Assembly: GCA_015056395.1 (NCBI GenBank)
Contig: SVGK01000001.1
Span: 1 to 37,915 of the forward strand
Length of the DNA stretch: 37,915 bases
Direction of reading: 5' to 3'
DNA from: Clostridiales bacterium
GTDB taxonomy: Bacteria; Bacillota; Clostridia; Christensenellales; Aristaeellaceae
In this document: piece after piece, positions 2,994-17,690 of the stretch
How positions within the stretch are numbered: position 1 is the first letter of the stretch
How the letters are laid out: each line of letters begins with the position of its first letter
Notes under the pieces: model-generated
Database searches by the model: none
The model's input: only the letters and a program-made list of their open reading frames with translations
Told to the model about the DNA's origin: nothing
Position numbers and translations under genes: made by a program

Positions 2994-3215
2994 CCGTAGG
3001 GACGCCATTCATGGCGTCCGCCCGGTCCACGCTCAGACCGGCTTCCTGTCGTCTGTCAAAGAACATCACACCCGCGACGCACACGCGCATCGTCATCCGT
3101 CACCCCGTAGGGACGCCATTCATGGCGTCCGCCCGGTCCGCGCTCAGACCGGCTTCCTGTCGTCTGTCAAAGAACATCACATCCCCAGCGCACGCGCGCA
3201 TCGTCATCCGTCACC
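2994..3215. repeat. 111-bp tandem direct repeat, two copies
   Basis: Copy 1 is 2994-3104 and copy 2 is 3105-3215. A partial third copy starts at 3216 (CCGTAG). Each copy begins CCGTAGGGACGCC and contains the perfect palindrome GGACGCCATTCATGGCGTCC (3000-3019 and 3111-3130), then a CCGGTC/GACCGG hairpin and a TCTGTCAAAGAACATCAC segment. The copies differ at only a few positions, indicating a recent duplication. Confidence 0.85.
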
Positions 3216-7846: not shown

Positions 7847-10800
7847 GTGCCGAACTTCACATCCGAACAGCAGCGGGCCATAGACGCCCGCGGCACGAAC
7901 CTGCTGCTGAGCGCCGCCGCGGGTTCCGGCAAGACCACCGTGCTGGTCGAGCGCGTGCTCGACCTGATACGCCGCGACGGCGCGCAGCTGGACAGGCTGC
8001 TCGTGGTCACGTTCACGCGCGCCGCGGCCGCGGACATGCGCGCGAAGCTCAGCGAGAAGCTGAGCGCGCGCGCCGGCGGCCCGGACGGAAGGGTGTATCT
8101 GGAGCAGCTGAACAAGCTGGAGCGCGCCTCGATCTCCACGCTGCACGCCTTCTGCGCGGACTTCCTGCGCACGTACTTCGAGGCCGCGCAGGTGGACCCG
8201 TCCTTCAGGATATTGGACGACGTGACGGCGGAGCGCCTGATGGACGAGGCGCTGGACGAGGTGCTGGAGGAGGCCTACGCGGCCGGCGGCGACGCGCTGA
8301 TGACGCTGGACTACGGGCGCGGCCCCAGGCAGGTGCGCGAGCTCGCGCGCTCGCTCTGCCGGGCCATGGAGGCGCGACCGGACGCGCAGGCCTGGCTCGG
8401 CCGCATAGGCAGCCGCGAGATCGTGCGGGCCTGGATGGACGAGATCGAGCGCGACGCGCGGCGCGCGATAAAGGCCGCGCAGACCTATCTCGGCGCGGCG
8501 CTCGGCCTCGACGGCCTGCCCGCCTCCTACGCGGCCGCCGCGGAAAGGGACATGGGCATGCTGCAAGCGATGCTCGGCCTGGACGACTACGAGGCGCTTC
8601 GCGAGGCGGTCATATCGCCCATGTGGAACAGGTGGAACAACGGGAAGGGCAGCGAGACGGCCAAGGACACGGCCAAGGTCCTGCACAAGAAGGCCAAGGA
8701 CGAACTGAAGGCCGCCAAGATCAAGGACATCGAGCTTAAGCCGGCGCTCGAGGACGCCGAGGCGCTCGTGCCGGAGATCGAGCTGCTGGGAAAGCTTGCG
8801 GCGGATGTCGCCAAACGGTACGACGAGAAGAAGGCGGAGCTTTCCGGCCTCACGTACAACGACCTTGAGCACAAGACGCTGCGGGCGCTCAGGGACGACG
8901 ACGTCGCCTTGGGCGTGCGCGCGCGCTACGACTATATATTCATCGACGAATACCAGGACACCTCCGACATACAGGAGGCGATCGTCGGGCGCATATGCCG
9001 CCAGGACAACGTGTTCATGGTGGGCGACGTCAAGCAGTCCATATACCGCTTCCGCCAGGCGGAGCCCGCGCTGTTCATGGAGAAGTACGCCGCCTATGGA
9101 AACGGCGAGGGCGGCACGCTGCTGCCGCTGACGCGCAACTTCCGCTCGAAGAGGAGCGTGCTGGACTTCGTGAACATGGTGTTCGGCCGCCTGATGAAGG
9201 GCGGGGACAGCGAGATCATGTACGACGACTTGGCGCGGCTGAATCCGGGTCTGCCGGACGAGGACCCGGGCGCGCCGGTCGAGATACACCTGCTGGACAT
9301 GAGCGGCGTGGACCCGGCGGGACAGGACGCCGCGCCGGACGCGGAGCTTGAGGAGATGGCCGACGCCGAGCGCGAGGCGCTGTTCATCGCGCAACGCATA
9401 CGCGAGATGATGGCCGAAGACCCCTCCCTCAGGTACCGCGACTTTGCCGTGCTCACGCGCGTGGCGGGCGGCGTGGCCTCCGCGATGCTGCCCCGCCTGC
9501 TGGAGGCGGGCATACCCGCCTATTCCGACAGCGCAGGCGGTTACTTCGATACCATGGAGGTGCGCGCCGCGCTGACGCTTTTGCGCCTCGTGTCCTCGCG
9601 CCGCAGCGACGTCGACCTGATCGGCGCGCTCAGGCTGCCCATGGTGGGGCTGCGGGCGGAGGCGCTCGCGCAGATACGCATAGCCCACCGCGAGGGCACG
9701 TTCGCCGACGCCGCCTGGCGCGAGGCCTACGGCACGGACATGGGTGTGATGCCCGGGGAAGGCGCGCCGCTCCCGGAGGGCGCGCAGGCGGAGGCGCTGC
9801 GCGCGTTCTGGGCGCAGCTCGAGCGCTGGCGCACACTCTCCGGCGCGGTCAGCACGGGCCGGCTGCTCAGGCAGATGCTCGAGGAGAGCGGCCTTTACAC
9901 CTATGTCGGCGCGCTGCCGGGCGGTGCGCAGCGGCAGGCGAACCTGAGCAGGCTGACGGCGCTGGCGGCGCGCTTCGACGCGGAGACCTCCGGCTCGGTG
10001 GTGCGCTTCCTGCGGTACGCGGCCGACCTCGAGAGCCGCGGCGACGGCGAGGCGGCGCATCTGCTGGGCGAGAACGACGACGTCGTGCGCCTGATGACGG
10101 TGCACAAGAGCAAGGGGCTCGAGTTCCGCGTTGTGTTCGGCGCGCAGCTGGCGCGCAGGTACCGCACGCCGCGCGCGGACAGCATCGACGTGCACCGCAC
10201 GCTGGGCGTCGGGATGTACTACTACGACCGGCGGCTCAGGTCCCGCAGGAAGACGATCGGCCAGACGGCCATCACGCTGGTGAAAAAGCGCGAGGAATTC
10301 GCCGAGGAGCTGCGCATACTCTACGTGATGCTGACGCGCGCGCAGGAGCGGCTGATACTGACGGGCGTCGTGGACAAGTTAGAGACCAGCCGCGCGAACT
10401 GGATGGCGCTCAAATACATGCCGGGCGCCGCGACGAGCCACCTGGACGCGATCATGGCGGCGCGCGCCGCGGCCGAGAATGAGGGCGAAGAGACGTGGTC
10501 GACCGTGCGGGTGCACGCCGCGGGCGCGCTCAGGTCCGCCGCCGAGGAGCAGCGCGACGAGGCCTCGGCCTTCCGACGGCTGCGCGCGGAGGGGCATGTG
10601 GAGCCCGACATGCGGCTGCTGGACGAGATGCGCTGGCACTACCCGGACGACGCCGCGGCGGGGCAGCCGCTCAAGCTCACGGTATCGGGCCTGGTGCGCA
10701 CGCTGGAGGGGCCAAAGCAGCTTCCGGAGATCATGAAGCGCCCTGCCTTCATGGAGGAGGCGCCCCGAGACGGCCTGACCGCCGCGGAGCGCGGCACGGC

Positions 10801-11311
10801 GTTCCACCGCGCGATGCAGCTGATCGATTTTTCGCCGCTTGCGTCCCTCGACGCCGAGGGCATGTCCCGGGAGATCGCGCGGCAGCTTGCCGACCTTGCG
10901 GCGCGGAAGCGCATGTCGCAGGCGCAGCTCGAGGCCGTGCGCCCTGAAAAGCTCGCGGCGTTCTGGGCGGGCGGCACGGGAAGGCGGCTCATGGCCTCCG
11001 AACGCGTGGAGCGCGAGTGGCCCTTCAACATGCGCGTCGACGCGGAGCGGGTGCTCACGCCCGAGGAGGCGGGCGGCTACGCTGGCACGAAGATCATCGT
11101 GCAGGGCACGATCGACTGCTGCTTCATCGAGGACGGGCAGTGGGTGCTGCTGGACTACAAGACCGACGGCACGGACGACCTCGAAGCCATCAGACGCCAC
11201 TACGAAAGACAGCTGAAGACCTATGCGCTCGCGCTGGAGACCATCACGGGGATCAGTGTGAAGGAGCGCGTGCTCTGCCTGATCGGACAGGGGAAGGAGA
11301 TCAGGGTGTAG
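7847..11311 (+). CDS. addA: AddA, ATP-dependent helicase-nuclease subunit A
   Basis: The large subunit of the AddAB (RexAB) complex, which unwinds and trims double-strand breaks to start homologous recombination. UvrD-type SF1 helicase motifs occur in order over 1154 residues: Walker A AAAGSGKTTVL near residue 24, FTRAAAADMR, DYIFIDEYQDTSDIQ near 365, VGDVKQSIYRFRQAEP near 392, LTRNFRS, TVHKSKGLEFRVV near 752 and LRILYVMLTRAQERL near 825. The C-terminal PD-(D/E)XK nuclease is intact, with GTIDCCFIEDGQW and LDYKTD. Translation starts at a GTG (7847) behind AAGGGG. In most Firmicutes addB precedes addA, but here the neighbour is a GNAT gene and no addB is in the window. Confidence 0.93.
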   Translation: MPNFTSEQQRAIDARGTNLLLSAAAGSGKTTVLVERVLDLIRRDGAQLDRLLVVTFTRAAAADMRAKLSEKLSARAGGPDGRVYLEQLNKLERASISTLHAFCADFLRTYFEAAQVDPSFRILDDVTAERLMDEALDEVLEEAYAAGGDALMTLDYGRGPRQVRELARSLCRAMEARPDAQAWLGRIGSREIVRAWMDEIERDARRAIKAAQTYLGAALGLDGLPASYAAAAERDMGMLQAMLGLDDYEALREAVISPMWNRWNNGKGSETAKDTAKVLHKKAKDELKAAKIKDIELKPALEDAEALVPEIELLGKLAADVAKRYDEKKAELSGLTYNDLEHKTLRALRDDDVALGVRARYDYIFIDEYQDTSDIQEAIVGRICRQDNVFMVGDVKQSIYRFRQAEPALFMEKYAAYGNGEGGTLLPLTRNFRSKRSVLDFVNMVFGRLMKGGDSEIMYDDLARLNPGLPDEDPGAPVEIHLLDMSGVDPAGQDAAPDAELEEMADAEREALFIAQRIREMMAEDPSLRYRDFAVLTRVAGGVASAMLPRLLEAGIPAYSDSAGGYFDTMEVRAALTLLRLVSSRRSDVDLIGALRLPMVGLRAEALAQIRIAHREGTFADAAWREAYGTDMGVMPGEGAPLPEGAQAEALRAFWAQLERWRTLSGAVSTGRLLRQMLEESGLYTYVGALPGGAQRQANLSRLTALAARFDAETSGSVVRFLRYAADLESRGDGEAAHLLGENDDVVRLMTVHKSKGLEFRVVFGAQLARRYRTPRADSIDVHRTLGVGMYYYDRRLRSRRKTIGQTAITLVKKREEFAEELRILYVMLTRAQERLILTGVVDKLETSRANWMALKYMPGAATSHLDAIMAARAAAENEGEETWSTVRVHAAGALRSAAEEQRDEASAFRRLRAEGHVEPDMRLLDEMRWHYPDDAAAGQPLKLTVSGLVRTLEGPKQLPEIMKRPAFMEEAPRDGLTAAERGTAFHRAMQLIDFSPLASLDAEGMSREIARQLADLAARKRMSQAQLEAVRPEKLAAFWAGGTGRRLMASERVEREWPFNMRVDAERVLTPEEAGGYAGTKIIVQGTIDCCFIEDGQWVLLDYKTDGTDDLEAIRRHYERQLKTYALALETITGISVKERVLCLIGQGKEIRV

Positions 11312-11426: not shown

Positions 11427-11523
11427 CACGATCCGTACCGCCCTGCAGCCATTTATGTCCGCCCGGTCATCGCGGCGCGAAGCGTATCCCGGTATAACGT
11501 GCGACATAACAGCGCCGCCGTAG

Positions 11524-11690
11524 GGACGCCATTCATGATTCAAGTGTCAAAAGGGGGTTTGTGGTTTCGTTGATGACGGATCGCACAAATCGCCCTCTAT
11601 TATCAGCACTATGTACAACGATAATTGTGCATATCGTATATCGTTCATCTTCTCAAATGACTTTTGACACCCTAATCATTCATGGCGTCC
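11524..11690. repeat. GGACGCC palindrome interrupted by an insertion
   Basis: The left half GGACGCCATTCAT (11524-11536) and right half ATTCATGGCGTCC (11678-11690) reconstitute the palindrome found intact at 3000, 3111, 11945 and 17552. The 141 bp between them is a MITE-like element. Confidence 0.8.
11537..11677. mobile_element. 141-bp MITE-like element with 17-bp terminal inverted repeats
   Basis: The left end GATTCAAGTGTCAAAAG (11537-11553) matches the reverse complement of the right end (11661-11677) at 14 of 17 positions; the innermost GTGTCAAAAG is identical. It is flanked by ATTCAT on both sides (11531-11536 and 11678-11683), a 6-bp target duplication centred exactly on the dyad axis of the host palindrome. 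The interior is A+T-rich with no coding capacity. It must have been moved by a transposase encoded elsewhere. Confidence 0.8.
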
Positions 11691-11727
11691 GCCGCGCGTG
11701 AGCGCACATCCCTTCCGTCGCCCGTAG

Positions 11728-11747
11728 GGACGCGGCATGCCGCGTCC
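11728..11747. repeat. GGACGCGG palindrome variant
   Basis: GGACGCGGCATGCCGCGTCC is a perfect 20-bp palindrome preceded by CCGTA, like the GGACGCC copies, but with different stem bases changed on both arms. Confidence 0.75.
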
Positions 11748-11925: not shown

Positions 11926-11944
11926 ATGCACGACGTCCCCGTAG

Positions 11945-11964
11945 GGACGCCATTCATGGCGTCC
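11945..11964. repeat. GGACGCC palindrome, intact copy
   Basis: GGACGCCATTCATGGCGTCC, preceded by CCGTA and followed by GCCCGGTC, is identical to the copies at 3000-3019, 3111-3130 and 17552-17571. Confidence 0.8.
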
Positions 11965-12230: not shown

Positions 12231-12345
12231 CGTAGGGACGCCCCATGGGGCGTCCGCATCCCCGTTCGGGGAACGGGGGCGCAGCAAGCGGCGCCCCTAC
12301 GGTGTGACCGTTCGTACATCCACATCACGCAGGCATGTACGATAT
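12231..12345. repeat. composite hairpin repeat, copy B
   Basis: It begins with the perfect palindrome GGACGCCCCATGGGGCGTCC (12236-12255), then a GTTCGGGGAAC hairpin and GGGGCGC/GCGCCCC (12276-12297), then the CTACGGTGTGACCGTTC tail shared with copy A (11804-11925). Confidence 0.75.
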
Positions 12346-17435: not shown

Positions 17436-17690
17436 TCTATGGAGAAGAGTATGTATTCGCACATGCCCGTATGGACGCCATTTCTGCCCGTCGTTGCATG
17501 GCGGCATGGAGGCCGCCGCTGCGGGTGGTGTCGATGAACGACCTTCCGTAGGGACGCCATTCATGGCGTCCGCCGCGCGCGAGCGCACTATTTTCATCAC
17601 ACCCCAATAAAAGATACGGCCATTCGCACATATCCATGTCATGCCAAACCGACTATATCGGAACGGATCAAGTAAAGGAGATGGTCATCC
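17436..17690. other. intergenic hairpin-repeat stretch
   Basis: It holds a GGCGGCATGGAGGCCGCC hairpin (17500-17517) and an intact GGACGCC palindrome (17552-17571) followed by GTCCGCCGCGCGCGAGCGCAC-type sequence also found after 11684. The last 60 nt lead to the ribosome site of the next gene (AAAGGAG). No gene is seen. Confidence 0.7.
17500..17571. repeat. two interspersed hairpin repeats
   Basis: GGCGGCATGGAGGCCGCC (17500-17517) matches the variant at 11778-11795. GGACGCCATTCATGGCGTCC (17552-17571) is identical to the copies at 3000, 3111 and 11945. Confidence 0.8.

Follow-up and report, generated by a model that had tools for sequence, protein, structure and literature searches.

A 141-bp MITE at the axis of a GTAG-tagged REP palindrome and its likely mobilisation by an IS1182-like transposase

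The split palindrome and its insert

The window analysed here is a whole stretch of DNA of 37,915 nucleotides. A gene at 7847-11308 in it passes the Gram-positive AddA model, and a 141-bp element is inserted in a short palindrome. The features of the locus are collected in Table 1. When the sequence from 11520 to 11690 was read, the order GTAG, GGACGCC, ATTCAT, 141-bp insert, ATTCAT and GGCGTCC was found. The element splits GGACGCC-ATTCAT-GGCGTCC, and ATTCAT is left on either side. Its termini, GATTCAAGTGTCAAAAG and GATTAGGGTGTCAAAAG (the latter reverse-complemented), are 17 bp long and identical at 14 positions; bases 5-7 differ, and the ends have the pattern GATT-NNN-GTGTCAAAAG. With its 17-bp inverted ends, a duplication, no transposase gene and eight copies, full or partial, across the genome, the element is a MITE. 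A preliminary description had reported that a 141-bp element with 17-bp terminal repeats splits a palindrome intact at four other sites of the window, and our re-reading agrees: the uninterrupted palindrome GGACGCCATTCATGGCGTCC starts at 3000, 3111, 11945 and 17552, with 0.01 matches expected in shuffled sequence.

Table 1. Coordinates of the MITE, its insertion site and the intact palindromes in the window
Feature	Position	Strand	Remark
GTAG tag and left half of the split REP palindrome, GGACGCCATTCAT	11520..11536	+	final 6 bases are the left duplication copy
GTAG	11520-11523		sequence read
GGACGCC	11524-11530		sequence read
Left target-site duplication, ATTCAT	11531..11536	+	6 bp; 7 or 8 bp fit equally
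MITE, 141 bp, no gene	11537..11677	+	sequence read
Left terminal inverted repeat, GATTCAAGTGTCAAAAG	11537..11553	+	sequence read, end-pattern search
Right terminal inverted repeat, GATTAGGGTGTCAAAAG	11661..11677	-	sequence read, end-pattern search
Right target-site duplication, ATTCAT	11678..11683	+	sequence read
Right half of the split REP palindrome, ATTCATGGCGTCC	11678..11690	+	sequence read
GGCGTCC	11684-11690		sequence read
Empty target, intact GTAG-tagged palindrome	2996..3019	+	
Empty target, intact GTAG-tagged palindrome	3107..3130	+	
Empty target, intact GTAG-tagged palindrome	11941..11964	+	
Empty target, intact GTAG-tagged palindrome	17548..17571	+	

The duplication is ATTCAT when the ends of the element are set at GATT...AATC. 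Since the flanking C and G of the palindrome are the same as the last C and the first G of the element, lengths of 6, 7 and 8 bp fit equally, and the duplication can also be read as CATTCAT or ATTCATG (7 bp) or as CATTCATG (8 bp). The axis runs through the middle of the 6- and 8-bp readings, and those of 7 bp lie half a base off it. It had been claimed that a 6-bp duplication sits precisely on the symmetry axis and that the site thereby records the length of the target. The centring holds, but the length is not uniquely 6 bp; it cannot be fixed at this site, where 6 bp is the minimum, and relatives elsewhere mostly have 7 bp. Among 36 elements with the same ends from other sequences, the longest duplication was 7 bp in 25, 8 bp in six, 6 bp in three, and 5 and 9 bp in one each.

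The target repeat and the insertions in the genome

The genome of the window is a 2.82-Mb draft of 346 contigs (80% complete), in which the window is contig 70, and the genome-wide counts rest on pattern searches. The 2.82 Mb contain 128 exact copies of the palindrome with any two central bases, and 171 copies when one mismatch is allowed. GTAG stands immediately 5' of 24 of 25 intact palindromes, and the sequence farther out is variable. A strand of the palindrome forms a hairpin with an 8-bp stem and a loop of 4 bases (-9.6 kcal/mol). Because the central TC is not self-complementary, the palindrome consists of arms of 9 around 2 bases or, folded, of 8 around 4. The target is a GTAG-tagged REP-like repeat, with a tag, a short stem-loop and many copies. 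It is similar to the GTAG REPs (PMC3733652, PMC2817692) in the tag, the stem of 8 and loop of 4, the high copy number and the presence of variant families in one genome. The 2013 survey of GTAG REPs covers Proteobacteria, Cyanobacteria, Chloroflexi and PVC (PMC3733652), whereas the host here, judging from the gene that passes the Gram-positive AddA model, probably belongs to the Bacillota, outside the groups listed in the survey. This suggests that GTAG REPs occur in Bacillota.

No RAYT gene with the repeat at its flanks was detected in the draft genome; such flanking is not universal. Three Y1_Tnp matches were obtained in the genome (an IS200-type gene, a 247-aa gene and a short match), and none of them has a REP palindrome nearby in this 80% complete draft. 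The intergenic stretch around the MITE is a REP cluster, and two GTAG-tagged palindromes whose stems differ and whose centres are GC-rich (GGACGCGGCATGCCGCGTCC, GGACGCCCCATGGGGCGTCC) are located near the MITE, at 11724-11747 and 12232-12255. The palindrome arms were also observed in a genome from another family of the order (G064), in 58 exact copies with a centre that is mostly ATAT among the matches listed. No exact copies were detected in four genomes of the same genus (G001-G004). The copies in the former, against their absence in the latter, could reflect horizontal spread or mis-binned contigs.

Eight full or partial copies of the MITE, 82-89% identical to that of the window, were detected in the genome by a DNA search. 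Two further elements with similar ends and other interiors were detected on contigs 162 and 166 by an end-pattern search. The copies on contigs 70, 276, 82 and 308 are complete, and in all four (4/4) the duplication is present as an identical hexamer on each side, ATTCAT or ATGAAT. For the copies on contigs 322, 63 (two copies) and 294, the contig breaks off within the element, which leaves a single junction in each case; the elements on contigs 162 and 166 likewise have one readable junction apiece. The copy on contig 294 is possibly the other half of that on contig 322 or of one on contig 63, whose second junction (ATCCAT) cannot be its partner. Since it may thus belong to another partial copy, there are at least seven insertions of the MITE and, with the two other elements, at least nine separate insertions. 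They occurred in both orientations, and the outer flanks differ between copies.

All readable junctions lie at GGACGCCAT-NN-AT. A search for the ends that was independent of the target and allowed one mismatch gave fourteen ends, 14 of 14 at the palindrome. When up to three mismatches were allowed, a junction search returned 196 matches; the approximately 100 listed consist of the fourteen junctions together with intact palindromes and matches that are degenerate or unrelated. Given 171 intact palindromes, a random insertion would meet an axis with a probability of about 6e-5 (approximately 1 in 16,000 positions). As far as the junctions are readable, all of the at least nine insertions occupy the same point of one REP family, as expected of a REP-specific mobile element. 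The preliminary description proposed that other copies be searched for across the genome and their targets tabulated, and it named copies at non-palindromic sites with another duplication length as evidence against its claim. In our tabulation, each readable junction of all detected copies was at the axis of the same palindrome, and no junction off the palindrome was among them; its main claim is thus strongly backed. A different element with the variant end GATTAGAGTGTCAAAAC and an unrelated interior (L024:5389-5529, where the contig ends inside the element) is also located at the palindrome axis.

Because the MITE and the palindrome always occur together in this genome, the two might be one composite repeat that spreads jointly, the target preference being only apparent. 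However, the GTAG side is to the left of the MITE in some copies and to the right in others, the outer flanks are not the same, and the central hexamer varies (ATTCAT, ATGAAT, ATCCAT). Moreover, 128-171 palindromes are empty. A composite repeat was therefore rejected on the basis of flanks, orientation and empty palindromes, and it is almost certainly not the explanation.

We also compared the insertions with the supply of other sites in approximately 82 kb. REPs with GC-rich centres and strong stems number 8, against 12 of the targeted kind, and received none of the nine insertions. Under equal use the chance of this would be about 0.6^9 = 0.01; thus, the centre of the repeat matters too. A plain preference for AT-rich sites of 6-7 bp would hit the palindrome for its abundance and its AT-rich centre in a GC-rich genome. 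The AT-rich duplications of the relatives fit such a preference, as does the REP loop, where the otherwise GC-rich repeat is AT-rich. Yet 30 of the 42 ATTCAT occurrences in the same ~82 kb lie outside intact palindromes (some of them at filled sites), and none of the nine insertions is outside the palindrome. We regard a plain AT preference as improbable.

Elements with the same ends and the candidate transposase

MITEs ending with GATTAGGGTGTCAAAAG occur widely among Lachnospiraceae and related Clostridia (L045-L163, among the matches listed). They share with the MITE of the window the 17-bp ends, similar sizes (many of 110-300 bp) and short duplications. In contrast to it, their duplications are mostly of 7 bp at AT-rich sites, their interiors are unrelated as far as seen, and they are not restricted to palindrome axes. 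The sample of 36 elements was drawn from Lachnospiraceae and other Clostridia (among the scan matches listed) and from one viral contig; a duplication of at least 5 bp was required, so elements without one are not represented. Most of the 36 targets have an AT-rich sequence and no dyad. In eight cases, the insertion overlaps an inverted repeat whose arms measure at least 8 (2.5 expected; binomial P 0.003, which is optimistic because some copies share one genome). Most of the eight are near the foot of the hairpin. In seven of them, 9-12.5 bases separate the axis from the centre of the duplication, and several of these seven share a recurrent TATAGGAAAT...ATTTCCTATA-like hairpin. Three of the 36 duplications have their centre on a dyad with 6 or more of 7 pairs (0.12 expected; P 0.0002, optimistic for the same reason); these sites are few, and they are AT-rich. 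The group as a whole thus shows some attraction to hairpins, but strict use of the palindrome centre is seen only in this genome. The preference for hairpin centres that had been suggested is therefore strict in this genome only; the Lachnospiraceae relatives are mostly found in AT-rich sequence that has no dyad.

A hairpin of the form TTATAGGAAAT...ATTTCCTATAA recurs across genomes, with several insertions near its foot (L052, L073, L092, L110, L123, L124, L144). On the viral contig IMGVR_UViG_2563367179_000002, a 120-bp MITE with the same ends (L042:1570-1689) consists mostly of an internal palindrome and has the duplication CATATAA. The MITE of the window had no match in plasmid or phage collections, and no relative of P0002 was confirmed in viral contigs. 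Among 100 relative genomes, the end pattern was found only in the genome of the window and in G062, there once and with no paired end in the stretch read. A further 396 genomes of the order were searched with an over-restrictive end pattern, which was little informative.

IS1182-like genes lie between the same ends at L177, L178 and L144, all in other genomes of the class. At L177, GATTTAGGTGTCAAAA...TTTTGACACTCTAATC surround a 533-aa IS1182-like protein, and L178 resembles it. At L144, both 17-mers are exact, the 7-bp duplication is CTATAAA and a transposase fragment is present. In addition, one end stands beside a 472-aa IS1182-like frame at L109. The best NCBIfam family was IS1182 (NF033551), with E values of 1.2e-39 for L177 and 2.8e-26 for L109; as the scores of 136.6 and 92.5 bits are under the curated cut-off of 270, we use the label IS1182-like. 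Pfam DUF772 passes its own cut-off, and so does DDE_Tnp_1_6 for L177.

In the genome of the window, the 17-bp end on contig 162 is joined directly to an open frame. This frame aligns to residues 246-271 of the L177 transposase with 54% identity (E 1e-5 in a single comparison, over only 26 residues), and when it was compared with all collected loci, the top two matches were two transposases with these ends. The peptide matched only IS1182-like transposases, with no match in Pfam, NCBIfam or plasmids. The element on contig 162 is most likely an internally deleted relative of a missing autonomous element. A complete transposase with these ends was not detected in the draft genome (80% complete) or in close relatives. 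In the genome of the window, no autonomous element was detected with the L109 protein, PF13751 or the contig 162 end, and an IS1182-like gene in G002, of the same genus, has no such ends in the stretch examined. Since IS1182-like genes of other Clostridia lie between these same ends and a fragment of such a gene is present on contig 162, an IS1182-like enzyme most likely mobilised the MITE; as no complete copy was found in the genome of the window, this assignment is one that we infer.

Proposed insertion process and comparison with known elements

Very probably, the element is a non-autonomous MITE moved in trans by an IS1182-like DDE transposase, with staggered joining at the centre of the GTAG-tagged REP. 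As the shared ends suggest, the enzyme would bind GATT-NNN-GTGTCAAAAG, and the ends would be joined through a cut, staggered by 6-8 bp, that spans the AT-rich centre of the palindrome. At the junctions, the loop of 6-8 bp is duplicated, both stem arms are retained and the position is exact to the axis. The target site is two-fold symmetric, and insertion is found in both orientations, always at the axis. In the simplest and most likely reading, the transposase would need the AT-rich core and the dyad of this REP together. Because the REPs are abundant, such targeting may provide a low-cost refuge for the element.

How the dyad would be recognised can be seen in two ways, and since all target sites share one sequence, duplex sequence and hairpin structure are not separable here. 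The transposase may read the 20-bp duplex as a two-fold symmetric binding site, with the ability to form a hairpin being irrelevant. The readable junctions all share GGACGCCAT-NN-ATGGCGTCC exactly, GC-centred REPs are unused, and the target choice of REP-specific IS elements is thought to be due to the transposase (PMC1525189). On the other hand, the same-end relatives use many unrelated AT-rich sequences; thus, a strict 20-bp requirement would be particular to this lineage. We give recognition of the duplex close to an even chance. Alternatively, the transposase may recognise an extruded hairpin or cruciform and join at the loop, irrespective of the duplex sequence. The targets of IS1272, a member of the IS1182 family, are inverted repeats unrelated in sequence (PMC5678879, PMC4923244), and the same-end relatives meet hairpins (8/36 against 2.5) and dyad axes (3/36 against 0.12) beyond expectation. 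However, GC-centred REPs with equal or longer stems have 0/9 insertions (chance ~0.01 under equal use), and the majority of the relatives' targets lack a hairpin. Recognition of the structure is a serious possibility, though on the less probable side.

IS elements that insert into REPs include IS1397, ISKpn1, ISPsy8, ISPa11, ISPpu9, ISPpu10, ISRm22 and ISRm19, from the IS3, IS110, IS4, IS256 and IS5 families (PMC1525189). Like these, the MITE is found strictly in one REP family of its host at a fixed point. They belong to the five families above, whereas the relatives of this MITE are IS1182-like and the host is probably of the Bacillota; IS1182-like elements are thereby added to the transposase families known to exploit REPs. 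According to Siguier et al., as cited in PMC5678879 and PMC4923244, some IS1182 members target palindromes; a likeness to palindrome-targeting IS families had been drawn at the outset. Both palindrome-targeting IS1182 members and REP-targeting IS elements are already known; the outcome in which the loop is duplicated and the stem kept, together with the strict use of one REP, sets this MITE apart. It is a clean new case of a known habit, not a new kind of element. For the IS1182 family, palindrome use has been reported with little data on how it takes place, and the many empty and at least nine filled copies of one target make a natural experiment on target choice by IS1182-like enzymes.

IS1272 of staphylococci targets inverted repeats, replacing or deleting the stem-loop without a duplication (PMC5678879, PMC4923244). 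It is similar to this MITE in that the transposases with the same ends are closest to IS1182, and palindromes or hairpins are among the targets of both. However, IS1272 removes the stem-loop without duplication, whereas the MITE keeps both arms and duplicates the loop (4/4 complete copies); replacement of the stem-loop as by IS1272 was not seen with this MITE. The authors of the IS1272 work also drew an alternative branch, not observed for IS1272, in which joining at the loop duplicates the loop only (PMC5678879, PMC4923244). The junctions of this MITE have that form. Should cutting take place at the loop of a hairpin, this outcome, which keeps the stem, would complement the removal of the stem by IS1272. 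That an IS1182-like lineage of Bacillota became an obligate inserter at REP axes, joining at the extruded hairpin loop and duplicating the loop alone, is a tentative and rather unlikely extension of the proposal.
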